Below, piece after piece: positions 2,850-58,983 of a stretch of 64,000 nt of DNA. The stretch lies in assembly GCF_001983935.1 (NCBI RefSeq), contig NZ_CP017641.1, positions 3,968,001 through 4,032,000 on the forward strand, written 5' to 3'. The position numbers and the translations under genes are program-made. Position 1 is the first letter of the stretch; each line of letters starts with the position of its first letter. This stretch comes from Fuerstiella marisgermanici. Its GTDB lineage: Bacteria; Planctomycetota; Planctomycetia; Planctomycetales; Planctomycetaceae. The notes under the pieces were generated by a model. That model saw nothing but the letters and a program-made list of their open reading frames with translations. It searched no databases and was not told the DNA's origin.

Positions 2850-3306
2850 TTGTGATGTCCTTGTGCGGCTCAGATCTTTATTGGTGCTGTCGTGGCGACA
2901 GGCAAGTTTTGTTTCTGAAAACAGTGACGGTACTTGTTGGCACGACACTACTTTAACGCAGATCACTTTTCTCAAGGGGCATGATAACTCGCCTTCTGAA
3001 AACTAAAGAACAACTTTTGGACTGAAAGTCGAAACAAGAATTGCTCTGTCCAGAAAATGGCGATTTTGTTAAGATCCCTGCTCAGTCACCGTAAAAACTA
3101 CAGCGAAAAATCGCACATCGACTGACGCCCTGCGTCCAAGCGTTTTGAACCTCTTCGGCGTCCCGCTGACCACCGGCACCGGCTCAGCACTTCCCAGTCA
3201 ATTCCGTGGCACCGTTTTGCGCCGCAGTCAGGGAATATTGAAAAACGCTGCCGAATTTTTTCACCACGTTACTACATAAAAGTAACAAACATTGCGTGGA
3301 GGGTAC
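2850..3306. promoter_or_regulatory. Gene-free region with candidate operator before the AlpA-like gene
   Basis: No supported gene in this 457-base stretch. At 3268-3286 there is a perfect inverted repeat, GTTACT-7-AGTAAC, about 20 bases before the proposed start of the HTH gene, a natural place for an operator. At 3059-3067 GGCGATTTT is the reverse complement of a nine-base core found twice at 15693-15823, on the other side of the presumed mobile element. This might mark its left end, but nine bases is weak evidence. Confidence 0.35.
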
Positions 3307-3516
3307 GTGCGAGCAACACCAGCAGAAAGAAGAAATGTCCTTGGCCTATTCAATGTGTCTGAGGCCGCTCGTCAACTCGATGTTGGCATTCAGCGGCTTC
3401 ACAGGGACATAAGGGCTGGTCGTGTGCCATCGCCACAAACGTGCGTTGGCAGACGATACTACTTCACTGCGGACGCTCTGACGAACCTCGCCACGCATTA
3501 CCAAGAAAGGAATTAG
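3307..3516 (+). CDS. AlpA/MerR-like small HTH protein (excisionase-like)
   Basis: 69 residues from a GTG at 3307, preceded by GGAGG at a good distance. The core FNVSEAARQLDVGIQRLHRD is a winged-helix/MerR-type helix-turn-helix, followed by GRRYYFTADAL, the usual wing and tail of AlpA/excisionase proteins. In P4-like elements such proteins control excision and expression of the replication genes. The position directly upstream of a P4-type primase fits. A longer TTG start at 3292 is possible but lacks a ribosome site. Confidence 0.7.
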   Translation: MRATPAERRNVLGLFNVSEAARQLDVGIQRLHRDIRAGRVPSPQTCVGRRYYFTADALTNLATHYQERN

Positions 3517-3518
3517 CG

Positions 3519-3830
3519 ATGAAAAATAAAACAAGGAGAGTGACTGTGGATATTCAGGGCCAAGAAGAGATTCGCCATATTCGCAGTGTGATTATGGAAG
3601 TCCCAGAGGACATGCTCGACGAGGAGGTTGAATGCGTCAACGCTGATCACTTCAACCAAGTTGAAGAACGATCCGAGTGGGAAGTCGATGACTCCAGCGG
3701 AATCTATGCTGAAGGATTTCCAACACTCGTCGGACCCGCTGCTCCAGACGCAGAGCCCGACCTAATTGTCGTCAGGGACGACAACGGTGAGTTCCGTGTA
3801 TGTGGCAACGAAAAATTCTTGTTGTCCTAA
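3519..3830 (+). CDS. Hypothetical acidic protein of the mobile element
   Basis: 103 residues from the ATG at 3519, with AAGGA just upstream and its start two bases past the HTH gene stop. Basic at the N-terminus (MKNKTRRVTV) and very acidic after that, rich in Glu and Asp. No motif is recognised. It probably shares a transcript with the HTH gene and ends at a strong terminator. DNA mimicry or a structural role are possible for such a charge pattern, but this is speculation. Confidence 0.7.
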   Translation: MKNKTRRVTVDIQGQEEIRHIRSVIMEVPEDMLDEEVECVNADHFNQVEERSEWEVDDSSGIYAEGFPTLVGPAAPDAEPDLIVVRDDNGEFRVCGNEKFLLS

Positions 3831-3928: not shown

Positions 3929-6385
3929 ATGTATTTAAGTAACACCGAACCAATTCTCGTTGACGAAAGCACGAGAAATCACAGAACAGAGATCGTCTCT
4001 CGGCTGTACGAAATGAATTTCAATCTGATCCCGATGAACGGTAAGAATCCGTGCGTCGAATGGAACGAGTTTCAGACTCATCGAGTAACGCCACAAGACC
4101 TCAGGAAATGGCTGACCGGCAAGTTTCCGACCAAGGACGGCAGGCGAATTTGGAAAGCAAGAAACCACAATTTCGCTTTGCTTACCGGTGCCATCCCATG
4201 GTCAGACGACAATCCCGGCATCATCGTCGTGGACAGCGATGACGAAGAAGCTGAAGAGCTTGTTCGGAATCACTGTCCACCAACGCCAATGATGCAGGTT
4301 ACAGGCAGTGGTAACAAGCAGTTTGTCTATCGACGACCGCCAATCGAGGCCCAGCCGTTCATCGGTAGTCCGACAAAGCTGCGACTGGATGGCAAACAGT
4401 ACAACCTCGACATTCGGGGCGATGGCGGGCTTATCATGATCCCCGGATCGATTCATCCGAAGACAGGGAGCATGTACGAGGAAGTAACATCGTGGACCAT
4501 GGAGCTTCTGATGGAGTGCCCTGTCTATGATCCAGCGTGGTTGCCATATGAAAGGGCGAAGACAAAGAAGACATCTGCCTTCATCACAGCAGACATCATT
4601 TCCGATGAACACGAAGATCTCATTGCTCAGGTTCAGACGGAAGTCGAAGAACGTGAGTCGCAGGCTCGGTGTTATCTGGATTCTGTTCCCGGAACACAGG
4701 AAGGCACTGGTGCTGATAATAAGTGTTCAGCATTGACCATGAAGTTACTCTACGGCTTCGCTTTGCCAGTAAACGTCGTTCAGGAAATGCTGAGCGAATG
4801 GGGACGCAAACCGGACCAGTTTGACGCTTCCTGTGCTTGGTATCCGTGGACCGACGACGAAATTGCCAGAAAGATCGATTGGTGTCTCGGACAGTCCTAC
4901 GAGGGCAGAATCGCAGACCGACTGTCACCGTTTCGTGATGTTGGTCCCATGGAAGCCAAGGTTGACGACGTTGTTAAGCCAGTTGATGACAACCACACCA
5001 TTGATCCCAAGAACCATCTCGAAACTGCCGAACTGTTTCGGCGGGAATGCTTTGCTCACAATCACAAGCCAACACTGATTCATCATCAGGCGACATGGCA
5101 TGGCTGGACAGGAAAGCTGTATGAGGTCATCAGTGATGACGACATAAAGGCTCGTCTGTGGAAGTGGCTGGCGACTTGCAAAACGTGGAGCAAGGATAAG
5201 CGGACGACATTCAAGCCGACAAGGAATGTTGTCGGTGGTGTCATGGACGGTTTAAAGGCGGTGACCAATCAGTCTTCTCAACTTGAGGCACCCTGCTGGC
5301 TTTCAAATGGACCAGAAGAGATCATCGCCTTTGACAACGGCTTGCTAAATGTCCGGGAGTTTCTTTCTGGGAAAGACAACCTCCTTTCGCACACGCCGAA
5401 TTGGTTTTCACCAAATTGTCTGCCACACCGGTTTGATCACCACGCAAACTGTCCCACATGGCTGGATTTTCTGAACCAAGTCTTCGATGAAGATGAGGAA
5501 CGGATCAACACGCTACAGCAGTGGTTTGGCTACAACCTTGTCAGTGACAACCGTCAGCACAAAATCGCTATGCTGATTGGCCCACCTCGAAGTGGCAAAG
5601 GCACCACGATGGCGATGATGTCAGCAATGCTCGGTCGTCATAACATCGCCAACACTTCATTGGCTTCACTTGGAGGCAGATTCGGGCTGGAACCACTTGT
5701 CGGGAAGATGTCTGCTCTGATTGACGAAGGTCATCTTGGCAGGTACAGCGACAACTCGCTAATTCTGGAGCGACTGAAGGCCATCTCTGGCGGTTCTGAA
5801 CAGACGGTGGACCGAAAAGGTGTGAAGGCAATATCCAGTGTTGCAATGAAAGTCAGGTTCACCATGGCGGTCAATGAACTGCCACGGTTGTCGGATTCTT
5901 CAGCAGCATTGAGGTCTCGATTACTGATCATTCCCTTCAACAACACCTACGAAGGCAAAGAGGACTTTGGGCTTGTTGATAGCTTGTTGAAGGAAGTCTC
6001 GGGAATCACCAATTGGTCGCTGAAAGGACTGAAACAGTTGCGAGCCAATGGACGTTTCAAGAATCCGATTGCAGGTGAAAAGATCATGCGTGATTTTGTT
6101 TATCTGTCGTCACCAGTTCAGTCCTTTTTGGACGAGTGTTGTCTTGTTGGATCAGACAAAAGTGTTCGCTTCGATGACATACAGACAGCATGGAAGGCTT
6201 GGTGTGAACAGAACGGGCATGTGTCTGGAAGCAATAACGACTTTGGCCGAAAGCTTCGTGCTGCAATACCACGAATTGATGATGAACGACGCCGAAATGG
6301 TGCCGGGCGAGACCGCTGGTACAAAGGTTTGGGGCTGAATCCTGAAACGATTCTTCAGCAGAATTGTCGTTCGATGATTTCGTAG
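3929..6385 (+). CDS. P4-type primase-polymerase/SF3 helicase (replication protein)
   Basis: 818 residues. The N-terminal half has a bifunctional primase-polymerase domain (about 20-190) with the acidic pair in GIIVVDSDDEEAE and the later DIRGDGGLIMIPGSIHPKTG. The C-terminal half is a phage/plasmid D5/DUF5906-type helicase: Walker A GPPRSGKGT near residue 550, Walker B SALIDEGHLG, then FTMAVNELPRLS and the arginine finger ALRSRLLIIPF. This architecture is known from autonomously replicating satellites and integrative elements such as P4, where one protein both primes and unwinds. It should therefore be the replication initiator of the element. The following non-coding repeats (6386-6769) are a plausible origin. 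Confidence 0.92.
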   Translation: MYLSNTEPILVDESTRNHRTEIVSRLYEMNFNLIPMNGKNPCVEWNEFQTHRVTPQDLRKWLTGKFPTKDGRRIWKARNHNFALLTGAIPWSDDNPGIIVVDSDDEEAEELVRNHCPPTPMMQVTGSGNKQFVYRRPPIEAQPFIGSPTKLRLDGKQYNLDIRGDGGLIMIPGSIHPKTGSMYEEVTSWTMELLMECPVYDPAWLPYERAKTKKTSAFITADIISDEHEDLIAQVQTEVEERESQARCYLDSVPGTQEGTGADNKCSALTMKLLYGFALPVNVVQEMLSEWGRKPDQFDASCAWYPWTDDEIARKIDWCLGQSYEGRIADRLSPFRDVGPMEAKVDDVVKPVDDNHTIDPKNHLETAELFRRECFAHNHKPTLIHHQATWHGWTGKLYEVISDDDIKARLWKWLATCKTWSKDKRTTFKPTRNVVGGVMDGLKAVTNQSSQLEAPCWLSNGPEEIIAFDNGLLNVREFLSGKDNLLSHTPNWFSPNCLPHRFDHHANCPTWLDFLNQVFDEDEERINTLQQWFGYNLVSDNRQHKIAMLIGPPRSGKGTTMAMMSAMLGRHNIANTSLASLGGRFGLEPLVGKMSALIDEGHLGRYSDNSLILERLKAISGGSEQTVDRKGVKAISSVAMKVRFTMAVNELPRLSDSSAALRSRLLIIPFNNTYEGKEDFGLVDSLLKEVSGITNWSLKGLKQLRANGRFKNPIAGEKIMRDFVYLSSPVQSFLDECCLVGSDKSVRFDDIQTAWKAWCEQNGHVSGSNNDFGRKLRAAIPRIDDERRRNGAGRDRWYKGLGLNPETILQQNCRSMIS

Positions 6386-33223: not shown

Positions 33224-34282
33224 TCACGCCGCCTTCTTCTCGAACGACTTCACCAGCCCTCCGACATGTGACTTCACCACAATTTCATCCAGTTGAATCG
33301 TGTCAATTTCATCCGGTATGTGCCGAATCGGAGGCAGGCTTTCTCGTGAAGAATGCGACCGATGATTGTTGTAATAAGCGACGAATTCGCTGACCAAATG
33401 GTCGAGATGGTGTGTGCCGAAAATTACGAATCTCGCCAAGCACTCCAGCTTTATCGTTTGAATAAACCTCTCGCAGCGTCCGTTCAGATTCGGTGACGCT
33501 TTCGGCAACGCATTTGTTCGCACATCGCTCTCGCCGAGCTTCGTAACAAACTCTTTGGTGAACTTCGTATCCCTGTCGTGAATGACGACAGATGGTTTCA
33601 GTTCACGCTTCGCCGTGCGGCTGAGAAACATCTCAGTCTGTTCGACAACCCACGCAGAATTCGGGTGTTCTGTTCCCGGAGAAACGATTGCTTCTCTGGT
33701 CTCAAGACAGATGAAGGCCAGCAAATACACTTCTCGAATGCCACGTGCGGTCACAGTCTTCACTGAGAAGAAATCACACGCCCACAGTGTCCCCGCATGA
33801 CGTTCCAAAAAGTTCGTCCATGAATCCGAAGTGCGATCAGGACTCGGTTCGATGCCTTCCTCTTTCAGGATGTTGCGAATCGTCTGACGGCTGATCCTCT
33901 TGATCCCCATTTTTCGCAACTCGCCGATTATTCGGGTATATCCGAAGCCGGTTTGTTTGGCGATCTCGATCACTAGCTCACGCAATTCACGTGACTTCCG
34001 TTGACCACCTTTTCGCTTCTTCTTGGGCTCCTCAGATTGATCCCGAATCCATCGATAGAAGGTCGCTGGCTTGACGATGGTGATCAGTTCTTCAATCGCT
34101 TTACCAAGTGCCTTGCCCAATTTCAGCAACCGTTTTCGTTCCTCGGGCTTGGTGTGGACCTGCCCCGGAATGCGTGCCCGGAGAATCTTGTTCTCTTCCT
34201 TCAGATATTCGATGTACCGAGCCAACTCACGGTCGCTGGCTGAGGCAATTAGAGCAAGTAAAGGATGGAATAGTCTGGTCAT
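33224..34282 (-). mobile_element. DDE-integrase-type transposase gene
   Basis: 352 residues from an ATG at 34282; an upstream extension to 34384 looks like non-coding reading. After a helical DNA-binding part (FGYTRIIGELRKMGIKRISR), the rve core has LWACDFFSVKTVTARG, VVIHDRDTKFTKEFVTK and SPNLNGRCERFIQTIKLECL, giving the D, D and E. The protein seems full-length. I could not find matching terminal inverted repeats, so its element ends are unknown; it may be inactive. Confidence 0.88.
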
Positions 34283-34534
34283 CGCCGATATCGTCGAACG
34301 TGCTAAAAAGGCTGGGTGTACACATTCGTTGTACCCCGAAATGCACCTTTTTGGTGAGCGATTTTCGCCCTCAAATCTCCGCATTTTTGAGCCCGGATTT
34401 GGCGACCGTCACAGGCTGCAAAAGTGGGCCGTCTGATGGTGCGATGCCATCGCCATTTGGCATCACGAGCGGCGAAACAGTGCTCGTGAATTCGCAAAAA
34501 GGTACATGTTTCAACCGATACGCCAGCCGCTGGA
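34283..34534. other. Mobile-element debris, no gene seen
   Basis: This stretch between the transposase start and the IS21-like end has no convincing frame. It looks like junction material from nested insertions. Confidence 0.35.
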
Positions 34535-37500
34535 GATCGGCGTGTAAAACGGACCCACTTCGGGGGTCTGATCGGCGCGTAAAATGGACCCACCGGTGAA
34601 CAGGTCGCGTCCGACTTTTGCTTCGCCCAATTCTTCATAGCGGCGTGACACAATTTCATTCAGATCAATGAACAGAGCGCCGGATTGTTTGGCGGCCTCT
34701 CGCGCCCACAGACCGTAGTCTTTGTCCGATCGAATCACGCGGCCGTCCTGCCAGCGGTCGCGCGGGACTTGCGACAAGACGATGGGGATGGCTCCTTTGG
34801 CTTTCGCGTCAGCGATGCATTTCCTTAGATACCAGCCAAAGCTATGAACGGTTTCCGGGTTGCCGGTTGCTTCCACCACCCCGTCGATCGATTCGTCGCT
34901 GTTGCCTTTGATGGATGCACGTGGTCGATCGCCCTCGAACATCTTGCCGCCGTCATTGTGACCGAACTGCATCATCACGAAATCGCCTTCGCGTAATCGG
35001 TCGAGTGATTTCTGCCAAAGCCCTTCCGTCAGATAGGTGCGACTGCTGCGTCCGCCGAGTGCGCGGTTTTCGACTTCCAGCTTTTCGGAATCGAAGTGCT
35101 TGTCGATCAGTTGGCCCCAACCGAACATGCCGTCGTCACCGCGACCCCGGCCGTTCTTGACCGTTGAGTCACCAATCAGAACCAAGCGACGTTTGCCGCT
35201 GTCTGATTCAGTTTTTGACTGCGAAGTTGTTGGATCGACTTCGTTCGGTTTGGCCACACGCTTGGCGCTGACCATGTAGACATGACGCTCGCCATGCATG
35301 TTGGAGCGAAAGACGATCCACTTTCCGTCGGGTGTGAAGGTGACGTTGGGTTCGAGGTCGTAATCGTGCGTGGAGAGATCGACTAATTTCTCTGCCGTCA
35401 CCGTGCCAAGCTTTGCTTGCTCACCACTGAGAGTTCCGGCGTTGAATTCGCTGTCAGGGCGAAACAGATAGATCCACTGGCCATTGCGAGACGGCTTCAG
35501 GCGTCGCTTTTCAGGGAGAGGCGTCTGGTTGGCAACGCTTTCCGGGCCGCCTCCGTCGCCGGCAATCAGTTTGCCGTCGCGCGAAATGTTGTAGTGAACC
35601 GACCATTCTTCGCGTGCGAGGCGATATCCAATCCGCTCGCCGGTCTTGACGTGAACTCCAGCGAGCCAGAATTGATCGGCTCGCGGAGTTTGCAGGTCAT
35701 ACCAAACCCACTGGCCATCGGCGCTGAAAAATTCGTGCCCAGCAATTTCATATTTCTGCTGACGCTTATGCATCAGTTTTGGCTCATCGCTGCCAAAGCG
35801 AATCGTCCAGACACGATCTAGTTCGTGCCACGATCCTTCGTGACAAAACAGCCCAAAGTTCGGATCGGTGGGTGAACATTGCAGATGGTTCAGCCAATCT
35901 CGCGACGGATGAAACGTTTCGAGTTTTCCGGAATCAATCTCGACCGTAAAGAGTTTTCTCAAACGCTCGCGATCGCGGCGGAATTCCTGCATCAATCCAA
36001 ACAACAATGTTTCGTCGGCATTGACGCCGTTGAAACTGGAGCCGCGCGGAAGCGTGACGATCTCGCGAGTCTTCCCGGTGTCGATATGCGTCGCTCGCAC
36101 GACCGTTCCTTCCCGAGACCGTGTGGAGTAATAGACATATCGTGACTTGCGGCCCATTTCGACGCCGCTGCTGCCGCCCATCCGGTAGCTCTGCCTGGGC
36201 ACAACTACTTTCAATTCGCGAGTGTCCAAATCGACAGTCTCCAAGCCACGCGGAGTCGAAACCAGCAGCTTGTCGCCTTCGGGTGAGTAAGCGTTTTGGT
36301 GAAAGTACAAACTCGCACTGCCAGCCTGTTTCGACAGCCGTACAACTCGATGTCCGGTCTTGGGATCGATCCACTCCGTCGGTACCTGATCGGTAGGGTT
36401 TGACGCCTGCTCAAGATCCGGTGCCCTGGCAACCAACGGCCAACCTTCCTCTGACCACGTCAATTCCTGGATCGACAACTTGGATCGACCTCGTTCGGTT
36501 CCATCGTAGTAATGGCAGCTCAATAGATAGCGGTCGCCATCGCGAAAAATATTCGCATGCCCCGGGCCGATGAAGGGTCCTTCGCTGCCGAGCAATAGCG
36601 TGCCGCCACCTTTCGCTAAATCGTCTCCGTCCTTGTCCAGGTACGGCCCCGTGATCTTTCGACTTCGTCCGACGCGAATATTGTAAGTGCTGTCGACGCC
36701 GCTGCAGCATTTGCCCCAATTCACAAACAGGTAAAACCACCCATCATGTTGATAGATTTGCGGCGCTTCGATCTGGCGGTAACTGGCGATGGAACGAACT
36801 GGCTTATCATCTGCAATCCGCTTGCCCGACTGCGGATCGAGTTGGATCAGCTTCAACCCGCTCCAAAAAGACCCGAGTGACATCCAGAACTCACCCGATT
36901 CGGTGCGAATCACCGCCGGGTCAATCGCATTGAAGTCATCTTCGCTGCTGGACTGAATCACGACTCCATGGTCGGTCCAGCCGAATTCAGGGTCCTCGGG
37001 ATTCAACGTCGGGGTCCAAGCAAGGGCGATAGCAGACGTATTCTTTCCAAAGCTGGAGACCGAGTAATAAAGCAGATACCGATCACCCATTTGGATAACA
37101 TCGGGTGCCCAGAAGTGACCGCGCTGGCCGGGAACAACATCGGTCACCCAATTCGGAATCTCAGGGAAAACTTGTGGCCCACGCTGCCAGGTTTGAAGAT
37201 CTTTAGATCGCCACGAAGAGACGCCGGTTCCGGTCGAAAAGAACCAATACTCGTCGCCACACTTGACGATGGATGACGGATCGTGAACGCCGACGTCGCG
37301 TTTGCCACGCAACTTGAGCAGTGCTGCTTCCTGTGCATCGCTAAGTCGAGGCGCGCGCTTCGGCAACGGGCGCTTCAGGGCTTCGGTTGCTCCACGCGGC
37401 AGGTCAAGCTTCGCAGCACCGATGTCTTTCACTTCGACCGTGGTCTGACGCCAACTCGTGCGCCGCCGGTCATCATCGCCGACTGTACCTTCGACTCGAA

Positions 37501-38098
37501 GCACATACTTTGTTAGCACGCCATCGATGATCCAGAAGCGAATAGTGCCCTTCGTATCTCGCACCGATTCTCCCCGACGAGGTGTGTCCAGCCGGTTCTT
37601 TGCGTTATTAACAGACAATGTTCCGACAAGGGCATCACCGCCTGCTTCAAGCGATATCAACTCGGCCGCCAACTCTTTGGCTTCTGCTGCTGGTGTGTCA
37701 ATACCTCGTGCGATCGACGCGGCAAACCCTTCCGAACCATACCCCTGATCGGAAAGCGAAACAGTCTCCCAACGACCATCGTGATTGCTGACCGCAGCTT
37801 TATCTCCATCGATGACAATCTGCGTGGAACGAGGGCCGAACGACAGCGTGGCGTGAATTACACCGCCTTGTACTGTTGCGCCTGTCTCGGGACCGGGGCG
37901 GAAACGTGTTTCCTCAGGAACCGCAGCTTCACTTGTCCAGCGATAGCTTCCCTGCTCGCCGAGTCGCTCGATTGCCTTCGCCAGTTTTATCGTGAGCGCG
38001 TCATTGGCCGACGGTTTCGTCTCGTCCGCTCGACTTTTTGCAGCCAACAGGAAACAGGCAACCAGACACAACGGAAGAGCCAAAAGTGTTTTGTTCAT
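34511..38098 (-). CDS. Pectin-degrading fusion GH43-PL22-CE12, C-terminus replaced by mobile DNA
   Basis: 1195 residues with a signal peptide (LLALPLCLVACFLLAAKSRA). Residues about 270-560 are a GH43 arabinanase-like domain: Asp273 (VHDPSSIV), Asp393 (NAIDPAVI) and Glu444 (IEAPQIYQ). Residues about 570-960 resemble PL22 oligogalacturonide lyase (TGHRVVRLSKQAGSASLYFH, MQEFRRDRERLRKL). Residues about 980-1168 are a CE12 rhamnogalacturonan acetylesterase with GDSTVKNG and MMQFGHNDGGKMF. After KVGRDLFTG, where CE12 normally has its DxxH block, the last 27 residues are encoded by the IS21-like end. The esterase has thus lost Asp-His and is probably inactive, while the other domains may work. Confidence 0.88.
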   Translation of the reverse strand: MNKTLLALPLCLVACFLLAAKSRADETKPSANDALTIKLAKAIERLGEQGSYRWTSEAAVPEETRFRPGPETGATVQGGVIHATLSFGPRSTQIVIDGDKAAVSNHDGRWETVSLSDQGYGSEGFAASIARGIDTPAAEAKELAAELISLEAGGDALVGTLSVNNAKNRLDTPRRGESVRDTKGTIRFWIIDGVLTKYVLRVEGTVGDDDRRRTSWRQTTVEVKDIGAAKLDLPRGATEALKRPLPKRAPRLSDAQEAALLKLRGKRDVGVHDPSSIVKCGDEYWFFSTGTGVSSWRSKDLQTWQRGPQVFPEIPNWVTDVVPGQRGHFWAPDVIQMGDRYLLYYSVSSFGKNTSAIALAWTPTLNPEDPEFGWTDHGVVIQSSSEDDFNAIDPAVIRTESGEFWMSLGSFWSGLKLIQLDPQSGKRIADDKPVRSIASYRQIEAPQIYQHDGWFYLFVNWGKCCSGVDSTYNIRVGRSRKITGPYLDKDGDDLAKGGGTLLLGSEGPFIGPGHANIFRDGDRYLLSCHYYDGTERGRSKLSIQELTWSEEGWPLVARAPDLEQASNPTDQVPTEWIDPKTGHRVVRLSKQAGSASLYFHQNAYSPEGDKLLVSTPRGLETVDLDTRELKVVVPRQSYRMGGSSGVEMGRKSRYVYYSTRSREGTVVRATHIDTGKTREIVTLPRGSSFNGVNADETLLFGLMQEFRRDRERLRKLFTVEIDSGKLETFHPSRDWLNHLQCSPTDPNFGLFCHEGSWHELDRVWTIRFGSDEPKLMHKRQQKYEIAGHEFFSADGQWVWYDLQTPRADQFWLAGVHVKTGERIGYRLAREEWSVHYNISRDGKLIAGDGGGPESVANQTPLPEKRRLKPSRNGQWIYLFRPDSEFNAGTLSGEQAKLGTVTAEKLVDLSTHDYDLEPNVTFTPDGKWIVFRSNMHGERHVYMVSAKRVAKPNEVDPTTSQSKTESDSGKRRLVLIGDSTVKNGRGRGDDGMFGWGQLIDKHFDSEKLEVENRALGGRSSRTYLTEGLWQKSLDRLREGDFVMMQFGHNDGGKMFEGDRPRASIKGNSDESIDGVVEATGNPETVHSFGWYLRKCIADAKAKGAIPIVLSQVPRDRWQDGRVIRSDKDYGLWAREAAKQSGALFIDLNEIVSRRYEELGEAKVGRDLFTGGSILRADQTPEVGPFYTPISSGWRIG
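34535..34593. repeat. Paired 24-base repeats, IS21-like element end
   Basis: A 24-base word starting GATCGGCG and ending GGACCCAC is at 34535-34558 and again at 34570-34593 with two mismatches. Ends with two or more spaced copies of a terminal word are typical of IS21-type elements. No istA/istB genes are present. The adjacent gene reads through into it. Confidence 0.5.
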
Positions 38099-38231: not shown

Positions 38232-38675
38232 TTGAATCCGAAAGAACAGATCCCGTTGATGCTTCGCGCTGCCTACCTGACGATGCACCGCCGATCCGAT
38301 GCAGCCTTCGTAGCGCACGGCGTGACGGCGGACCAGTTTGTCTTACTGGCAGCTCTTTCTGAGGAAGAGCCTTTGACACAGAAGGAGCTCGCGCTTCGGA
38401 TGCCGTCCGATCCGAGCACTGTCCGAGCGATGCTGGTTTTGCTGGAAGAACGCGGATTGGTTCGTCGAGATGCTCATCCCACCGACGGCCGGGCGCGGAC
38501 GGCAGCATTGACTTCAGCCGGGCGACGAAAGTTTCGCCAACTCTGGGAAGCAGGCGAGTCCATTCGTACGCAGACGGTGAGTGACATCAGCAACGAGGAC
38601 GCGCACGCTCTTGTGCGAATCCTTATGCAGGTCGCTGAGTCGCTGACGCCGCAATCAACCGAAGGTGCCAAGTAG
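38232..38675 (+). CDS. MarR family transcriptional regulator
   Basis: 147 residues from a TTG at 38232 with GGAG upstream. The winged-helix core is TADQFVLLAALSEEEPLTQK, ELALRMPSDPSTVRAMLVLL and the wing RDAHPTDGRARTAALTSAGR. A dimeric repressor, released by a small phenolic or other ligand in studied members. The palindrome at 38193 is its likely site. It is followed after 43 bases by the triple hydrolase gene. Confidence 0.95.
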   Translation: MNPKEQIPLMLRAAYLTMHRRSDAAFVAHGVTADQFVLLAALSEEEPLTQKELALRMPSDPSTVRAMLVLLEERGLVRRDAHPTDGRARTAALTSAGRRKFRQLWEAGESIRTQTVSDISNEDAHALVRILMQVAESLTPQSTEGAK

Positions 38676-38718
38676 ATCAAAGTCCGAGTGCCCGCAAATA
38701 ACGAGTCTGGAGAATGCG

Positions 38719-41382
38719 ATGAATGACCATGCACGCTGGGCGGTGTTGACGCTGTGTCTGTCGGTGATCTTTGCCGGGCCTGTTCGATCGCAGGAACCAG
38801 CTCCAATACAGGAAGACGATGTCAAAGTGATCCATGACATCGCGTATCGCGACGGCCCCAGCAAAGCCTGGCGGCTGGATCTTGCGATGCCAGTAGAACA
38901 AACCGACGCCCTGCGTCCGGCGCTGGTGATCGTTCATGGCGGCGGCTGGCGTGGCGGTTCAAAATCGGTCGACGTCTATCAAAAGATGATGACGGACTAC
39001 GCTGCGAAGGGCTACGTGACCATCAACGTTGAGTATCGCTTGACCGGCGAGGCTCCGTTTCCCGCATGTATTGAAGATGTGAAGTGCGCCGTCCGCTGGT
39101 TGAGAGCTCATGCCGAAAACTATCATGTCGATCCCGAACGAATCGGAGCTTACGGACATTCTGCCGGAGCACACCTGGCTTTGATGCTGGCGATGGCTCC
39201 GAAGTCGGCCCGCCTGGAGGGCGACGGGGGCTGGGAGGAGTATTCCAGTGTCGTCAACGTCGCTGCCGCCGGTTCGCCGCCAACCGAACTGGGACGAGAC
39301 GTTCCCATGGCGAAGTCCAAATGGTGGCCAATCGGCTATATCGCCAAGGATCATCCACCGCTGTTTCTGATTCAGGGAAGCGAGGACCGAATTGTTCGTG
39401 CAGAGCTGACCGATGACTTTGTCAAAAAGATGAAAGCCGCCGGGGCGGGAATCAAATACCTGCGAATCGATGGCGCAGAGCACGGACTGGCCTACAACGA
39501 AAAACTGCACGTGACCGATCCGGCGATCGAGAAATTCTTCGCCGAGCATCTCAAGCCCACGCCGCCAGAAAAGACAGCTTCAGGCAAGACATCTGCAGCT
39601 GCGGAAGTCATGATCGAAGATGGTGGGACTGGTCCGTTTTCGGCAATCGCGACCGAAGATTTATCGCTGGCCGGCATGACGATCTATCGTCCGCGCGACA
39701 TGTCGCCATTCGGCGAAACGCGGAAGTTGCAAATCCTGCTGTGGGGAAACGGAGCTTGTGCGAACACGACTCAGGAACACAAGAACTTTCTCAATGAGAT
39801 TGCCTCGCACGGATACGTTGTTCTGGCAATCGGCCTGCTCGATCAAATTGAAACGCGTAACGAAACTTTGCGGCAGAAGACTAAGTCCAGCCAGCTCACC
39901 ACAGCACTTGATTGGATTGTCGCGGAAGGCAAACGCAAGCAGAGCGACTACTTCGGGAAAGTTGACAGCGGGAAGGTGGCCGCGATGGGCATGTCATGTG
40001 GCGGACTTCAAGCGATCGAAATCTCTGTTGATCCCAGAATTTCCACGACAGTGGTCTGCAACAGCGGTGTGTTACCGGAACCGTCTCCGATTCCCGGAAT
40101 GCCACCGCTCAAGAAAGAAGTGCTGAAGAAGTTTCATGCTCCGGTCCTGTACATCATGGGTGGTCCGTCGGACATCGCCTACAAGAACGCCATGGACGAT
40201 TTTTCCCGAGTCAACCATGTACCGATCGTGATGACCAACTTCGACGTCGGGCACGCTGGAACATATGCGCGACCTCACGGCGGAGAATACACACCAGTCG
40301 CACTCGCCTGGCTCAACTGGCAACTGAAAGGCAAAAGCGAAGCGTCAAAGATGTTCCTCGGTGAAGACAGCACGCTCGCCAAAGATCCAAAGTGGACCGT
40401 CGAGACGAAGAACTTTCCAACCCAGACATCAAAGATGTCCAGCGCTTCGCCAGCTGACGCCACGGTTCGGACCGGTTACCCTCCGGCCATTCCTCATGGA
40501 TGGTCCGACGGCTATCTCTATGCCAATGGCATTCGCCTGCACTATTACCGCGCGGTTCCGGCGGCCGACAAACCGCCGATGGTGATGGTGCATGGCATCA
40601 CCGACAACGGGCTCTGCTGGGCAACGCTGACTTTGAAGCTGCAAGACGACTACGACATCTATATGCTCGATGCTCGCGGACACGGACTCTCCGATCTTTT
40701 CACTGCTTCCGACGACGCAGACACTCTGATCAAAGACGTGGCTGCTGCGATCGACGCGTTGGAATTGAAGAAGCCGATCGTTGTGGGGCACTCAATGGGT
40801 GCTCACACGGTGATGCGTTTGGGCGCGGAGTATCCGGATCTGGCCAAAGCGGTGATCATGCTCGATCCACTGCTGGAAGGCGCTCGAAACAGGGGCGGCC
40901 AACGCGGCAGTCGTCAGCGTCGCTCTGAGGACGGCACAGACCGGCAGGCTGACCGCCCCAAAACGAAACGTCTTACCGTCAGTATGTTCGGTTCAGCAGA
41001 GGAACTTGTTGCTCAGAACAACTACCCCTTTGACGAACTGGTCGCCAAGTGTCGCCGTGACAGCCCCAAATGGGACTTCGTGGATTGCCAGTACTGGGCG
41101 TTGTCAAAGAAGCAATATCACGGCGCTTACTCACGTGAGCAGTTCGCGGTCATGACGGGAGCGATGCGGATTGGTGATTCATTGCAGAAGATTTCCGTTC
41201 CCGCGTTGATATTGAAAACCGATGCGTCTCCTGATGATCGCAAAGCCCACCATGAAGCAGCCAGTGCGATGCAGAACGGTAAACTCGTGCACATCGACAA
41301 CGCGGGCCATAATCTTCACCACGACCAGTTGAACCGTACCTGCGAAGTGCTGTCACAGTTCCTCTCGACACTTTACGAATGA
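38719..41382 (+). CDS. Secreted triple alpha/beta-hydrolase fusion
   Basis: 887 residues from the ATG at 38719, with GGAG six bases upstream, and a signal peptide (WAVLTLCLSVIFAGPVRS). Three alpha/beta-hydrolase domains follow. First (about 30-280), a carboxylesterase-like domain with HGGGWRGG and GAYGHSAGAHLALML. Second (about 300-560), a dienelactone-hydrolase-like domain with AAMGMSCGGLQAIEI. Third (about 590-880), VHGITDNGLCWATL, DARGHGLSD, VVGHSMGAHTVMRL and the final His in NAGHNLHHDQ. All three nucleophile elbows are intact. The enzyme probably removes ester groups from plant polysaccharides or their fragments. Confidence 0.88.
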   Translation: MNDHARWAVLTLCLSVIFAGPVRSQEPAPIQEDDVKVIHDIAYRDGPSKAWRLDLAMPVEQTDALRPALVIVHGGGWRGGSKSVDVYQKMMTDYAAKGYVTINVEYRLTGEAPFPACIEDVKCAVRWLRAHAENYHVDPERIGAYGHSAGAHLALMLAMAPKSARLEGDGGWEEYSSVVNVAAAGSPPTELGRDVPMAKSKWWPIGYIAKDHPPLFLIQGSEDRIVRAELTDDFVKKMKAAGAGIKYLRIDGAEHGLAYNEKLHVTDPAIEKFFAEHLKPTPPEKTASGKTSAAAEVMIEDGGTGPFSAIATEDLSLAGMTIYRPRDMSPFGETRKLQILLWGNGACANTTQEHKNFLNEIASHGYVVLAIGLLDQIETRNETLRQKTKSSQLTTALDWIVAEGKRKQSDYFGKVDSGKVAAMGMSCGGLQAIEISVDPRISTTVVCNSGVLPEPSPIPGMPPLKKEVLKKFHAPVLYIMGGPSDIAYKNAMDDFSRVNHVPIVMTNFDVGHAGTYARPHGGEYTPVALAWLNWQLKGKSEASKMFLGEDSTLAKDPKWTVETKNFPTQTSKMSSASPADATVRTGYPPAIPHGWSDGYLYANGIRLHYYRAVPAADKPPMVMVHGITDNGLCWATLTLKLQDDYDIYMLDARGHGLSDLFTASDDADTLIKDVAAAIDALELKKPIVVGHSMGAHTVMRLGAEYPDLAKAVIMLDPLLEGARNRGGQRGSRQRRSEDGTDRQADRPKTKRLTVSMFGSAEELVAQNNYPFDELVAKCRRDSPKWDFVDCQYWALSKKQYHGAYSREQFAVMTGAMRIGDSLQKISVPALILKTDASPDDRKAHHEAASAMQNGKLVHIDNAGHNLHHDQLNRTCEVLSQFLSTLYE

Positions 41383-44504: not shown

Positions 44505-45653
44505 TTACCGATTCGGTTGTCGAAACTGTCCCGGTGGCATGCCTTCCAGCTTGCGAAAGAACACGCACATGTATTCGTCGTGCTCGAATCCGGTCCGCCT
44601 TGCAATTTCGGACAACGAGAGATCTGTTTCAGTCAACAACTCTTTGATCCGTTCCAGCTTTAGTCGGGTCAGCTCTTCATGTGGTGACCGACCAAGGATC
44701 TTCTTGAATCGGCTTTCCAGAACTCGTCGCGACAGCGGCACGTGTCGCACGACATCCGCCACGTTGATTCCTTCCAGCGCATGTTCGCGAATGAATCGCA
44801 ACGCGGTGGCGACGTCCGGATCGTCGATGGCCAAAATGTCGGTCGACTGCCGAGTTTGAATGCCCTGCGGAGCGACGAGGACCGGCGCAGAATCAATTTG
44901 TTCACCGTTCATCATGCGGTCCAACAAAGCTGCTGCCTCGAACCCTGTCCTTTGCGTATTGCAAATGATGCTCGACAACGGTGGATCGGAAAGTTCACAC
45001 AGAAGCTGGTCGTTGTCGACTCCCAGCACCGCGATTTGTTCAGGTACGGCGATGTCCAGTTCCCGGCAGACTTCAAGCAGCTTTTGAGCTTGAATGTCGT
45101 AACAGGCAAAGATCCCGATCGGGCGAGGCAGGTCTTTCAGCCATTTTGCAAGGCCTCGTTTCTCACGGTTCCAAGAGTACTTCGGGTCATTGCGCGACAA
45201 CGAATCGTAAACATTGGCAGCGACTCCGGCCGACTCCACAAGCAATCGGAATTTGTCTCGCCTCCAGTTCGACCAGTTGAAACCCGGATCGCCGCAGTAG
45301 GCCAGATTCCGAAAGCCTCGGTCGAGGAGATGCTGGACACCGAGTTCGGCGATGGCCTCGTCGTCGGTTTCCACCCACGGAATATCCGGCAGGTGTCGAG
45401 CAGCACTCACATCGACGACCGGCAACTTGGTTCTTCGCAACGACGCGGCGATCTCGTCGGTTTCGATTCTCGCGATGATTCCGTCACCGCTCCACCGTCC
45501 AAGCCATTGAGGTGGCCTGCCGCCACGTTCCTGTTCGGGCAAAAAGATGGACCATCGTTCATGATGGCGAACGTACTCCGTAATTCCGTCCAACACGCCA
45601 CGAGAGTACGAATTCGAGGTTTCAATCAGTAGGGCAACGCTTCGTCGCGGCAT
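44505..45653 (-). CDS. XylR-like AraC-family regulator with LacI-type sensor domain
   Basis: 382 residues from the ATG at 45653. The N-terminal two thirds form a periplasmic-binding-protein fold: RRSVALLIETSNSYSRGVLD, then GRWSGDGIIARIETDEI and AVLGVDNDQLLCELSDPPLS. The last 100 residues have two AraC HTHs: INVADVVRHVPLSRRVLESR and LSLSEIARRTGFEHDEYMCV. The architecture is that of the xylose-responsive XylR activators. It is divergent from the xylan operon at 45905, with about 250 bases between, and most likely activates it. Confidence 0.93.
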   Translation of the reverse strand: MPRRSVALLIETSNSYSRGVLDGITEYVRHHERWSIFLPEQERGGRPPQWLGRWSGDGIIARIETDEIAASLRRTKLPVVDVSAARHLPDIPWVETDDEAIAELGVQHLLDRGFRNLAYCGDPGFNWSNWRRDKFRLLVESAGVAANVYDSLSRNDPKYSWNREKRGLAKWLKDLPRPIGIFACYDIQAQKLLEVCRELDIAVPEQIAVLGVDNDQLLCELSDPPLSSIICNTQRTGFEAAALLDRMMNGEQIDSAPVLVAPQGIQTRQSTDILAIDDPDVATALRFIREHALEGINVADVVRHVPLSRRVLESRFKKILGRSPHEELTRLKLERIKELLTETDLSLSEIARRTGFEHDEYMCVFFRKLEGMPPGQFRQPNR

Positions 45654-45904
45654 CGAAAAAATACTCAGTAGTTGCGTTTGACGCAGTAGGAGTTGAGCCG
45701 CTTTGCTTCCTGAAAGCCGCAATTTGTCGGTGAAATATCTCAATTATTGTGCGCGATATGTCATGGCGGAACAACTGTTGGATGCGACAATAAGCACAAT
45801 CGGAGTGGTCTCCGCGCCCAGTTCACGCGGTCGGTATGGGCCGTTTACTCGAAATTGTTTCCCAGCGTGTCGTGACTGCACACGTGAATGAAAGGAAGAA
45901 TCCT

Positions 45905-47023
45905 GTGAGTCGTACTGTCAATGCCGCCATGATTGGATTGGGATTCGGTGCTGAGTTTATTCCCATCTACAAGGCACACCCAAACGCAGATGTCACCGCG
46001 ATTTGCCGTCGCAACGAAGCTGAACTGAACAAGTCCGGCGACCAATTCGGCATCGAGAAGCGATACACCGATTACGATCAAGTGCTTGCTGACCCGGACA
46101 TCGACTTCGTCCATATCAACAGTCCGATTCCCGATCACGCGTGGATGTCGCTGAAGGCGCTCGACGCAGGCAAGCACGTGATGTGTACGGTCCCCATGGC
46201 AACGACGATCGACGACTGTCGCCAGATCGTCGAGAAAGTCAAAGAAACTGGTCTGAAGTACATGATGGCAGAGACCGTCGTCTATAGCCGCGAATACCTG
46301 TTCATCAAAGACCTGTACGACAAAGGTGAACTGGGAAAAATCCAGCATCTGGCAGCGTCACATCCACAGGACATGGACGGTTGGCCGAGCTACTGGGAAG
46401 AAATGATCCCGATGCATTATGCGACGCACGTCGTCAGTCCTTGTCTGGGACTAGTTGATGGATTGGCTGAGTATGTTAGTTGTTTCGGTTCCGGCAAAGT
46501 TCGAGACGATATCGCCAAGAAGTCCGGAAACACGTTTGCACTGCAGTCGGCTCACATCAAGGTCAAAGACTCCGATGTTACTGCTCACATCTGGCGTTGT
46601 CTGTACGATGTTGCTCGTCAGTATCGCGAAAGTTTTGATGTATACGGCACCAAGAAGAGTTTCGAGTGGACGCTGGTCGAAAACGAACCTCACGTGATTC
46701 ACACGGCGAAGAAGCCGGAACCAGAGATTCCGGAGAAGATCGAAGTTCCGGACTTCGCACATCTGTTGCCGGAAGAGATTCAACGATTCACGCTTCCTGC
46801 GGAAATTCACGACGCCGAGCACCTGTCGTTCCTACAGGGAGGTGGTCACGGCGGCTCGCATCCACACTTGGTTCATGAATTCGTTTCGGCTCTGCTAGAA
46901 GATCGTGATCCGAAGCCAAATGCGGTCACCAGTGCAAACTGGACATGCGTCGGAATCTGCGCCCATGAATCCGCGACCAAAGGCGGCGAGATCGTTCGTC
47001 TGCCGGAGTTCACCCTTGGCTGA
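45905..47023 (+). CDS. Gfo/Idh/MocA family oxidoreductase
   Basis: 372 residues from a GTG at 45905, with GGAA upstream. The Rossmann start AAMIGLGFGAEFIPIYKAHP binds NAD(P), followed by VHINSPIPDHAWMSLKALDA and GKHVMCTVPMATT (the usual EKP is here TVP). The substrate domain includes HYATHVVSPCLGLVDGLAEY, with a His at the catalytic position. These enzymes oxidise or epimerise sugars and their derivatives; in this operon a xylan-derived sugar or uronate is likely. First gene of the operon divergent from XylR. Loss of the usual Lys in motif EKP is notable. Confidence 0.9.
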   Translation: MSRTVNAAMIGLGFGAEFIPIYKAHPNADVTAICRRNEAELNKSGDQFGIEKRYTDYDQVLADPDIDFVHINSPIPDHAWMSLKALDAGKHVMCTVPMATTIDDCRQIVEKVKETGLKYMMAETVVYSREYLFIKDLYDKGELGKIQHLAASHPQDMDGWPSYWEEMIPMHYATHVVSPCLGLVDGLAEYVSCFGSGKVRDDIAKKSGNTFALQSAHIKVKDSDVTAHIWRCLYDVARQYRESFDVYGTKKSFEWTLVENEPHVIHTAKKPEPEIPEKIEVPDFAHLLPEEIQRFTLPAEIHDAEHLSFLQGGGHGGSHPHLVHEFVSALLEDRDPKPNAVTSANWTCVGICAHESATKGGEIVRLPEFTLG

Positions 47024-53922
<6,899 letters not shown>

Positions 53923-53952
53923 TCCAGACGCCATCCATCCAGGAAGTTTCTC

Positions 53953-55399
53953 ATGAGAAATACCGGAACGCTGTCCATCTTCGGCCTGATAGGACTGTTG
54001 ACGTTCGTAATGCCAGCGTCTGCTCAGGAGTTTGACGGCAAGTGGCATGCACTGTTTGACACGCCTGCCGGACTTCAGATCTACCATTTCGATTTCCAGA
54101 ACAATAGCGGCAAGGTGACAGCCAGGGCGGCCGTGGAGACTGCTGACCGAAAGCGTGATGTCGCGTTCAAGGAAGCAAAACTGGACGGCGACACGCTAAC
54201 TTTTGTGGAGCTGCGAAAATTCGGCGAGCGTGAGCTTCGCATCGAATACACCGGCACGCTGAGCGACAAAGGGATCACGCTCGTACGCAAAATCGGCGAC
54301 TTCGGAAGTCAGGAATCGGTCGCGACCCGGAAAGTTCCCAAGCACGAACCTGCTTCGACTGCTCCGGTGGTCGAAGTTCAAATCGAACGCATTATCAAGG
54401 ATGCCTTCAAGGATTCTTTCCGCATCGGGACTGCAGGCGATTTTCCGGCGCGGTACTCGAGTCACGAACTCAAGGTCGCAGCCGAGCATTTCAACGCCGT
54501 GACACCCGAGAACTGCATGAAGCCTGAACGGATTCATCCGGAAGAAGGCAAGTGGCGATTTGAGCAGTCCGACGCGTTGGTCCAATGGGCGACGAACAAC
54601 AAGATGAGTGTTCACGGACATACGCTCGTGTGGCACGCTCAGACACGTGACTGGTTCTTTCGCGATGGAGAACGCGAAGTTGTGACGAAGCGAATGAAGG
54701 CTCACATCGACACGTTGGTTGGCCGCTACAAAGGGAAAATCCAAAGCTGGGATGTTGTCAACGAAGCAATCAACGATGGCGGCAATCAGGAAACGGGCCA
54801 AACGGAGAACTTGCGGAATTCCAAATGGGTGCAAACGCTCGGGCCAGAGTTTCTGACGTTCGCGTTCAAGTTCGCTGCACGAAGCAGACCCCAACGCCGT
54901 TCTTTATTACAACGACTACAACATCGAATCTGGTCAGAAGCACGACAGTTCGATGGTCCTGCTGAAACGCCTGCTCAAAGACGGAGCGCCGGTTCACGCG
55001 GTTGGAATTCAGGGTCACTGGCGGACCGGAAGCGTCCCTTACGACGACATCGACAAGGCGATTTCGGATTACGCTTCGTTGGGGCTGAAGGTCAGCATCA
55101 CAGAGCTTGACGTCACGATTAGTGGAGCTTCTGGCGGACAATTCGGCCGCGGCTTTGGGCGAAGACGTTTTGGCAACAGGAAACCTCCTTCGGTCGAAGA
55201 CCTAAACGCTCAAGCCAAAGCGTATAAGAAGCTCTTCGCGATCTTCAACAAGCACAAAGACGTGATCGAACGAGTCACTTTCTGGGGCCTCAACGACCGC
55301 CGCACATGGCGCTTCGGACAACACCCCCTGATTTTCGACGCCAACAACAATCCCAAACCCGCCTACGGTGCGATTGTTAATGAACCATCGCGCGACTGA
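53953..55399 (+). pseudogene. GH10 endo-xylanase, frameshifted
   Basis: Signal peptide, then a domain of about 95 residues shared with the end of the giant protein (ELRIEYTGTLSDKGITLVRK), then GH10. The first part has ERIHPEEGKWRFEQSD, HTLVWHAQTRDWFF and the acid/base Glu in SWDVVNEAINDGG. At about 54880 the frame breaks: FKFAA should continue EADPNAVLYYNDYN, which lies in another frame, with two bases apparently missing. The second frame runs on with the nucleophile Glu in KVSITELDVTIS, VTFWGLNDRRTWRF and stops at 55399. Both halves are otherwise intact, so this is either a recent mutation or a sequence error. Confidence 0.88.
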
Positions 55400-55411
55400 T
55401 TGCAATCACAC

Positions 55412-55470
55412 CACGCCCCTCAGTGCCTCCATGAACTGAGCGAGCCCACAACATGGGGCGTGCTGTTTTC
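55412..55470 (+). terminator. Nested inverted repeats after GH10
   Basis: CACGCCCC (55412-55419) pairs with GGGGCGTG (55455-55462), enclosing CTCAGT (55419-55424) with ACTGAG (55435-55440). A short T-run follows. It lies 13 bases past the GH10 stop and may attenuate transcription between two xylanase genes. Confidence 0.45.
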
Positions 55471-55524
55471 AGCAAGTTGGGCGCAGGCGCATAAGCTTGA
55501 ATTGCACGTCACCAAGGTTTCACC

Positions 55525-58500
55525 ATGACAAAACTTGCAATCTCGTTTGTCTCATTCGTGCTGCTGTCTTTCGCAGCTGTATCCGCTCAGGATGTCCCGC
55601 TGGTCTACGACTTGGAAAACACCGGAGAGAAGTTTCCTCAACCGGTGCTGTCGGCTTTCGAGCAATTGCCGGTCGTGCGACCTCTGCCTGATCCGTTTGC
55701 GTGGCCGGACGGCAGCGGGCGTTCCACAAAGTTCGCAGACTGGGCTCGTCGTCGCTCAGAGATCAAAGCTGAGATTGAAAGATACGGGGTTGGGGAAAAA
55801 CCACCGCGTCCGAAAGACATCGCCGCGACCCTCAAAGACGGAACACTCACCGTCAAGGCGACTGAAAATGGCGAGACCCTGACGCTTACCGCGCGAGTGA
55901 GTATGCCGAAGGGCGACGGTCCATTCCCCGCTGTTATCGGAATCGGCTTTGGTGGCGGAACCGGAAGTTTGCCGGCCGACATCTTCACCAGTCGCGACGT
56001 CGCGACGATCTCGTTCGACTTCAAACAGGTGATGGCTCACCAGCAGAAGCGCGGCAACGAACCGATCAACCGGCTCTATCCGGAACTCACACACATCGGA
56101 GCCTACGCGGCCTGGCCGTGGGGGATCAGCCGTATCATCGACGGTCTGGAACTGGTCGAAAAAGACCTGCCGATCGACCGCAAACGACTGGCCGTCACAG
56201 GCTGTTCGTTCGCCGGAAAAATGGCTCTGTTTGCCGGGGCCTTCGATGAGCGGATCACCCTGACCATTGCCCAGGAATCGGGCGGCGGAGGTGCCGCGGC
56301 GTGGCGAGTTTCTGAAACGCTTGGCAACGTGGAAACGCTCGGCAAGACCAGTCGAGCGTGGTTTCGGGAAGACATGTTTGAATTCTCTGCCGCCGTCGAC
56401 AAGCTGCCGTACGACCATCACGAACTGATGGCGATGGTTGCTCCGCGAGCTCTGCTAGTTCTCGGGAACCCGGAATACGAATGGCTGGCGGATGAATCGG
56501 GATACGTTTCCTGCCGAGCCGCTCATGAAGTCTGGAAGACGTTCGGCATCGGCGATCGCTTTGGTTTCTCGATCGTTGCCGGACATCCGCATTGCCAGCT
56601 TCCTGCCAGCCAGCGACCGGAAGTCGAAGCGTTCGTCGACAAATTTCTGCTGGGCAAGTCGGACGTGAAGACAGACGTCACCAAACACCCGTTCGATTTG
56701 GTCGAACACGAATTCTGGTACGACGGTTGGACGAAAGGCAAGTCGACGTTCCCAACGTTGGACGGCGAGAACATCGAGACCTTCACTTTCGAGGCCGAAG
56801 CGATGAAGTCCGGTTCCGACTGGGAAATCAAATCCGCCGAAGACGCTTCCGCCGGAAAGTACATTACGGTCAAGCCCAGTATTGAAAGCCCGCCAGCCGT
56901 TCCCGCAGGCGACAACGCAGCCGTCACAATTCCATTCACAACTACCAAAGACGCGAAGTACTACATCCACGCTCGCGTGAACTGCCCCTCGGCGGACGAC
57001 GATTCATTCTGGATCCAGATCGACGACGAAGGTTTCGTCATGGCCAACGGCCTCGGAACCCAAGGATGGCAATGGGTCAAGCTGGCCACCTTCAAACCAA
57101 CACCCGGCAAGCACACGCTGACCATCAAGTACCGCGAAAACGGAGCCTTCCTCGATCGCATCGGAATCACAACCTACCCGTTCGGAGCAGACGCCCTCGA
57201 CGCGGCCAAAGCTGAACCAAGCTTGAAGAATGCCGTCGACAAGCGGTTCAAGATCGGTGTCGGCGTCGGACATCGGGTTGTTCAGAACGATGAAGACGCC
57301 GCACTGATTCGCAGGCACTTTGAAATTCTGACTCCCGAAAACTGCATGAAGCCGGAGGGCATTCATCCGCAGGAAAATGAATGGAAGTTTGAGCCGAGTG
57401 ATGCGTTCGCCGACTTCGCCCGAGAACACAACATGGAATTGGTCGGCCATTGCCTTGTTTGGGCCAAGGATGACCGAACCGACGAGTGGATGATGAATGA
57501 GGGTGAAAATCCGGTGTCGCGAGAGAAGCTGTTGCAGCGAATTCAAACGCACGTCAAGACCGTCGTCAGTCGTTACGCCGACGTGGCCACTCACTGGGAT
57601 GTCGTCAACGAAGCGATTGGCGATAGCAACGATGATCTGCTGCGCGATTCGGTGTACTCGCAAACGACCGGGATGGACTTCATCGTCACCGCGTTCAAGA
57701 CGGCCCGCGCACACGATCCCGACGCTCTGCTGATTTACAACGACTACAACGGACACAAACCCGGCAAGCGAAAGAAGCTGATTGAACTGCTGACGAAATT
57801 GAAAGCCGCCGGAGCCCCCATCGACGCGTACGGCATGCAGGGGCATTTTGAACTGGGCGACAACTCGCTGCCGGAACTCCGCGCGACCTTCGATGAACTT
57901 CGCAAACTCGGCATTCAGGTCGTGGTTTCCGAACTCGACATCGATGTGGTCAAACGAGGACGCTGGTGGGCGGACGGAAACAAGTATCGCGACGAACTGA
58001 AAACGTTTGATCCGTACAAAGATGGAATGCCACCGGAAATCGAACAGCAGATGGTCAAACAGTACGTCGAATTGTTCAAGCTGTTTCACGAGTACCGCGA
58101 CATCATCGCGCGAGTCTCATTCTGGAACCTGCACGATGGCCATAGTTGGCTGAATTATTTCCCGTGGGAGCGAGTCAATCATCCGCTGCTGTTTGATCGC
58201 CAACGAAAGCCCAAAGCGGCGTTCGATGCGGTTTACGAAATGCTGAAGAAATCATCCGACCAAAAGGCCGCCGTACGTCACACGCCGCTTCAACGCACCG
58301 ATGCGAACTCCAAAAAGGTCCACAAGCAGCTTGTTGCGAAAACGAAGCTTGGCCAAATCGACGTCTACTTCCAGGGCGATTCGATCACTCGCCGCTGGGG
58401 CGCGACGGACTATCCAGAACTGTTGGCTCACTGGAAAAAGTCATTTCATGGCTGGAACGCGGCCAACTTCGCCTGGGGCGGCGACAACACGCATCACATA

Positions 58501-58983
58501 CTGTGGCGAATGCAAAACGGCGAACTCGAAGGCGTTTCGCCGAAAGTCGTTTGTCTGCAAGCCGGAGCCAACAACCTTCCCTGGATCGGCGCGGCCAAAC
58601 AGTCTCACGTGACCGACGTTGTTGAAGGCATCGAAGTCATCATCGCCGAATTTCGTTCTCGATTTCCCGATGTGCCAGTGGTGCTAACCGCCATGTTTCC
58701 ACGAGACCAGAACGCCGCGTTGGCTCCAACAATTGACGCGATCAACAAGAAGCTGAAAGTGATCAGCCAGGCCGACAAACGAATCCACTGGATCAACATC
58801 AACGACGACCCGGCTGGTGCCAGCGGCAAGTTACTGCCAGACGTGTCGTCGGACGGTATTCACTTGGAAAAGGCCGGCTACGAAGTCTGGGCACAAGCGT
58901 TGCGACCAATCCTGACAAAACTCCTCGGCGAACCAGCTGAGGTTGATCGTGCTCCACCAGCAACAGGCAATCCCGGTCTATGA
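55525..58983 (+). CDS. Four-module xylanolytic enzyme CE15-CBM-GH10-SGNH esterase
   Basis: 1152 residues with a signal (ISFVSFVLLSFAAVSA). Residues 25-380 are a CE15 glucuronoyl esterase: Ser228 in VTGCSFAGKMAL, Glu251 in AQESGGGGAAAW and the His in VAGHPHCQLP. Residues about 405-560 look like a galactose-binding-fold CBM (FTFEAEAMKSGSDWEIKSAE, FLDRIGITTYPFG). Residues about 570-905 are GH10 with catalytic Glu in THWDVVNEAIGDS and VVVSELDIDVV. Residues about 930-1140 are an SGNH esterase (VYFQGDSITRRWG, QAGANNLPW, SSDGIHLEKAGYEVW). It would cut the xylan chain, release lignin-linked glucuronate esters and remove acetyl groups. Confidence 0.94.
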   Translation: MTKLAISFVSFVLLSFAAVSAQDVPLVYDLENTGEKFPQPVLSAFEQLPVVRPLPDPFAWPDGSGRSTKFADWARRRSEIKAEIERYGVGEKPPRPKDIAATLKDGTLTVKATENGETLTLTARVSMPKGDGPFPAVIGIGFGGGTGSLPADIFTSRDVATISFDFKQVMAHQQKRGNEPINRLYPELTHIGAYAAWPWGISRIIDGLELVEKDLPIDRKRLAVTGCSFAGKMALFAGAFDERITLTIAQESGGGGAAAWRVSETLGNVETLGKTSRAWFREDMFEFSAAVDKLPYDHHELMAMVAPRALLVLGNPEYEWLADESGYVSCRAAHEVWKTFGIGDRFGFSIVAGHPHCQLPASQRPEVEAFVDKFLLGKSDVKTDVTKHPFDLVEHEFWYDGWTKGKSTFPTLDGENIETFTFEAEAMKSGSDWEIKSAEDASAGKYITVKPSIESPPAVPAGDNAAVTIPFTTTKDAKYYIHARVNCPSADDDSFWIQIDDEGFVMANGLGTQGWQWVKLATFKPTPGKHTLTIKYRENGAFLDRIGITTYPFGADALDAAKAEPSLKNAVDKRFKIGVGVGHRVVQNDEDAALIRRHFEILTPENCMKPEGIHPQENEWKFEPSDAFADFAREHNMELVGHCLVWAKDDRTDEWMMNEGENPVSREKLLQRIQTHVKTVVSRYADVATHWDVVNEAIGDSNDDLLRDSVYSQTTGMDFIVTAFKTARAHDPDALLIYNDYNGHKPGKRKKLIELLTKLKAAGAPIDAYGMQGHFELGDNSLPELRATFDELRKLGIQVVVSELDIDVVKRGRWWADGNKYRDELKTFDPYKDGMPPEIEQQMVKQYVELFKLFHEYRDIIARVSFWNLHDGHSWLNYFPWERVNHPLLFDRQRKPKAAFDAVYEMLKKSSDQKAAVRHTPLQRTDANSKKVHKQLVAKTKLGQIDVYFQGDSITRRWGATDYPELLAHWKKSFHGWNAANFAWGGDNTHHILWRMQNGELEGVSPKVVCLQAGANNLPWIGAAKQSHVTDVVEGIEVIIAEFRSRFPDVPVVLTAMFPRDQNAALAPTIDAINKKLKVISQADKRIHWININDDPAGASGKLLPDVSSDGIHLEKAGYEVWAQALRPILTKLLGEPAEVDRAPPATGNPGL

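Follow-up and report, generated by a model that had tools for sequence, protein, structure and literature searches.

Two described systems bear on the gene reported here: the rhamnogalacturonan acetylesterase (RGAE) of A. aculeatus (1deo/1k7c) and the IS21 insertion sequences. In SGNH enzymes the acid/base pair sits in block V (PMC9487903), a block that in RGAE holds D192 and H195, and each end of an IS21 element carries two repeats (PMC10122671). We analyzed a window of 64,000 nucleotides of the Fuerstiella marisgermanici chromosome, in which one polypeptide combines GH43, PL22 and CE12 modules and ends in a stretch derived from IS21 (Table 1). Its CE12 part has the SGNH fold and blocks I-III in common with RGAE but, unlike RGAE, is without the D192/H195 block. 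The reading frame is uninterrupted over 1195 codons; its limits, strand and single frame, as well as the 27 codons beyond CE12, had been given exactly in a first-pass annotation of this DNA. Truncation of a module in association with an insertion sequence is commonplace. The gene is an unusual multi-CAZyme with such an ordinary truncation, and its rarer part is the trimodular GH43-PL22-CE12 fusion, seen in the window genome only, among the genomes searched.

Table 1. Features of the fused gene and its junction, in window coordinates, and the three intact PL22-CE12 proteins of relatives
Feature	Position	Strand	Length or residues	Remarks
Fused ORF	34511..38098	(-)	1195 aa	N-module, GH43, PL22, truncated CE12, 27-aa IS-derived tail
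N-module with signal-peptide-like N-terminus	37319..38098	(-)	aa 1-260	Predicted LolA/LprG-like fold
GH43 domain, predicted endo-1,5-alpha-L-arabinanase	36431..37303	(-)	aa 266-556	Pfam and solved relatives
PL22 oligogalacturonate-lyase-like propeller	35249..36388	(-)	aa 571-950	Pfam PF14583 and 3pe7/3c5m
CE12/SGNH domain, cut after Thr1168	34595..35191	(-)	aa 970-1168	Blocks I-III present, block V absent
In-frame codons GGSILRADQTPEVGPFYTPISSGWRIG	34514..34594	(-)	27 codons	IS21 end and a few flanking codons; stop 34511-34513
IS21 right-terminal-repeat remnant	34531..34595	(-)		Two repeat units, outer CA end at 34531; 65/65 identity
Orphan IS481/IS3-type integrase element	33224..34530	(-)		Abuts the IS21 outer end; ORF 33224-34384 (386 aa) and leader
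L136			702 aa	69% identity to window protein
L137			716 aa	65% identity to window protein
L041			686 aa	64% identity to window protein

That GH43, PL22 and CE12 occur in one polypeptide, as first proposed, was borne out by Pfam matches and, for CE12, by alignment with 1deo/1k7c. The GH43 part matches Pfam at residues 272-554 (E=4.6e-41), its closest solved structures are the arabinanases 1wl7 and 6a8i, and its three acidic motifs (HDP, AIDP and IEAP) align with those of arabinanases. The AbnA equivalog is its top NCBIfam match (281 bits, below the cut-off of 480), and we predict an arabinanase of the endo-1,5 type. The limits of the PL22 part, at about residues 571-950, were set by comparison with relatives and reach beyond the Pfam match (PF14583, residues 714-944, E 1.8e-9, 37.2 bits against a cut-off of 30). 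This part is akin to the oligogalacturonate lyases 3pe7 and 3c5m (E about 1e-10), with which its FCHEG and HEF stretches align, at the level of stretches rather than residue by residue on the structure. Production, secretion and activity of the GH43 and PL22 parts should still be expected. The first 260 residues, for which Pfam gave no match, yielded an AlphaFold2 model (pLDDT 83.5) with LolA 2w7q as its best Foldseek match (E 1.7e-6) and LprG 3mh8 also among the matches (range 1.7e-6 to 1e-5); a LolA/LprG-like fold is accordingly only predicted for this N-module. GC3 is 0.60-0.65 across GH43 to CE12 and lower, 0.53, in the N-module. The N-module precedes GH43 in L043 and L175 too and, within its wider set (L043, L175-L181), also heads long planctomycete proteins of another family with other downstream domains.

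In the CE12 part, the Pfam GDSL match covers residues 975-1152 (E 3.3e-11, profile positions 2-155 of 178). By sequence and by fold alike, the top match is RGAE, either 1deo or the variant 3c1u, an entry titled D192N that departs from 1deo precisely at the block V Asp; the part was assigned to CE12 because of its alignment with 1deo/1k7c. The catalytic Ser of block I (GDS) is present in LIGDSTV, aligned to 1deo, and both ALGGRSSRTY and GHND are conserved in the family alignment. Homology stops at T1168: the alignment to 1deo halts at residue 186, ahead of D192/H195, whereas that of an intact relative (L136) continues through DHTHT up to residue 207. After LFT, the full-length CE12 relatives aligned read D-W-T-H-T or D-H-T-H-T, with one D-W-A-H-T, and their CE12 ends, or the next module begins, about 40 residues past LFT (about 30 past block V). 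The loss of the DxxH block, already recognized at first pass, is thus upheld. Because the alignment ends before block V, the domain is without both the catalytic Asp and the catalytic His and, judging from these missing residues, the esterase should be catalytically dead. A CE12 that is naturally short, working without block V or with a block V from another protein, would find parallels in the Ser-His dyad or altered block V of some SGNH enzymes (PMC9487903), and the AlphaFold2 model of the truncated domain does keep most of the fold (pTM 0.80, 1deo being the best structural match). Here, however, the His is gone as well as the Asp, D-[WH]-[TA]-H is kept in every full-length relative aligned, and the tail is IS21 sequence, so that we find this explanation scarcely credible. 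It is also quite unlikely that the fusion is a working, secreted, lineage-unique pectin enzyme in which a dead CE12 is kept for substrate binding or stabilizing, with the IS21 end as its C-terminus.

Intact PL22-CE12 proteins are present in three relatives (L136/G319, L137/G373 and L041/G146). They have the module order of the window protein, with 64-69% identity over its residues 546-1169, and differ in having their own N-terminus, without N-module and GH43, and an intact block V. The other half has a counterpart in L043/G064 (598 aa), which shares the N-module and GH43 with the window protein (51% identity over residues 2-555) but stops right after GH43, without PL22 or CE12. In G373, one contig carries both a GH43 gene and the PL22-CE12 gene, with about 7 kb between them, and the reverse order, CE12-PL22, was seen at two Cytophagales-type loci. 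The closest CE12 relative, that of Rhodopirellula europaea 6C (L054, 87%), goes on LFT-x-x-D-W-T-H-T. At this locus (contig 183, about 2700-3780) the CE12 begins in the PL22-CE12 linker, against an apparent hsdS part on the opposite strand, and the locus reads like one that was rearranged or misassembled. Outside the window genome, the full fusion was found in none of 397 genomes of the class and 170 of the order, and in none of the best 80 loci of a GTDB pattern scan, from which a genome very close to that of the window may be left out; the fused gene is likewise missing from all seven same-genus genomes. An uninterrupted gene in a relative was therefore found for the PL22-CE12 portion and not for the full fusion. 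Given that no closely related strain with an intact fused gene was present among the genomes searched, we infer the ancestral state from the separate relatives.

Past CE12, the remnant is identical at all 65 bp, from 34595 to 34531, to the right end of a complete IS21 on the same chromosome (E about 5e-26), an identity far beyond chance. The complete copy (genome 1531124-1533792, 2669 bp) has istA and istB above the NCBIfam cut-offs and is flanked by a 6-bp target-site duplication, TTGGAG. The remnant resembles it in having two terminal repeat units, TGGGTCCATTTTACGCGCCGATC and TGGGTCCGTTTTACACGCCGATCTCCA, and a CA end (terminus ...CTCCA), and differs in keeping the right-end repeats only: istA, istB, a pair of ends and a target-site duplication are absent at the fused-gene locus, where the 65 bp of the right end alone were found. 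We take it to be an IS21 end on account of the two terminal repeats and the CA, in keeping with the described ends of these elements (PMC10122671). The terminal repeats are readable in frame for 21-22 codons, and the protein stops 27 residues past CE12. The notion that the tail is a conserved protein C-terminus was rejected, as the tail matches nothing but the IS21 copies of this genome; a search for relatives that share this C-terminus but lack mobile sequence found none. The sequence beyond CE12 is thus IS21-derived, as the first-pass annotation had it, but over the 65-bp repeat region only, after which comes an unrelated integrase element.

The outer CA end of the remnant is directed away from CE12, which meets the interior of the IS with an overlap of at most one or two bases. 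The ORF of the abutting integrase element is IS481/IS3-like, yet below curated cut-offs. A same-genus genome has its leader too, at an unrelated locus (84-89% identity), and the homology begins exactly at the IS boundary. More copies or fragments of this element, some of them interrupted, occur in the window genome as well as in one of the same genus (L013, L014, L015; L196 7074-7488), one of them beside an apparent IS21 left end. Since CE12 is joined to the IS21 interior, the boundary is a deletion or rearrangement junction and not an insertion boundary. The earlier view that CE12 runs into IS21 accordingly holds for the cut after LFT and for the 65/65 match, but not for an insertion, since the outer end faces away. 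Simple insertion of IS21 into the CE12 codons, followed by loss of the other end, would explain why these codons are directly touched by an IS21 end. It predicts, however, an outer terminus next to CE12 and, past the IS, the rest of CE12, whereas the outer CA terminus points to the integrase element, on the side away from CE12, and the leader of that element is found in place of the rest of CE12. Such an insertion is very improbable.

We put the probability of the following account, as a whole, at about 80%. An N-module-GH43 arabinanase would have been fused to a PL22-CE12 enzyme to give a planctomycete pectin-degradation protein, and an IS21 copy would have inserted downstream of the gene, beside the orphan integrase element. 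A later deletion, with one end at CE12 codon 1168 and the other 65 bp into the IS21 right end, would have taken about 40 or more CE12 codons, including those for the catalytic Asp and His, together with any intervening sequence and most of the IS, and the leftover terminal repeats would have chanced to stay in frame, supplying a new 27-residue C-terminus. We infer the deletion mechanism, as we do expression and the activity of each module. One detail speaks against the deletion account: the break in IS21 falls within about 3 bp of the inner border of the second terminal repeat, the remnant being almost exactly the right repeat region, and a random deletion would land there only by coincidence.

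The idea that the missing DxxH part might lie elsewhere in the genome found no support, as a search of all 8.92 Mb with the R. europaea CE12 C-terminus gave nothing significant (best E 0.27). No reciprocal IS21 fragment was found in the genome either; besides the remnant it contains the complete IS21 and a single partial, diverged one. The remainder of the IS21 at this locus appears to be gone, as does the DxxH part, and the missing CE12 end was most likely lost rather than moved within the chromosome. Alternatively, the truncated gene could have come already joined to the IS21 end, through transfer or a larger rearrangement (inversion or translocation) instead of a local deletion. The 0/7 count in the genus would agree with such an arrival, as would the R. 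europaea 6C CE12, which likewise adjoins an hsdS-like remnant at a rearranged edge. The identity of the IS21 end to the complete copy of the same genome nevertheless makes joining in this lineage simpler and, with no reciprocal product found in the genome, we consider a pre-joined arrival unlikely. The gene offers a clear natural case of a multi-enzyme pectin protein after loss of one activity, with intact counterparts of both halves in relatives, and an automatic GH43/PL22/CE12 annotation would credit the protein with too much activity.

Multi-enzyme fusions are recurrent in the window. At 38232-41382 (+), a 905-aa ORF encodes a single polypeptide with three alpha/beta-hydrolase regions (BD-FAE, DLH/PETase-like and Abhydrolase_6), and the frame of a MarR-type regulator overlaps this ORF. 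A xylan-type cluster at 44505-58983 has an XylR/AraC-type regulator, a GFO/IDH/MocA oxidoreductase, an esterase and GH10, along with an 1889-aa ThuA-DUF7133-cytochrome c-esterase protein and a 1152-aa glucuronyl esterase-GH10-GDSL fusion. Toward the left of the window, an 818-aa Prim-Pol/D5-type primase-helicase ORF at 3929-6385 (+) suggests another mobile element.
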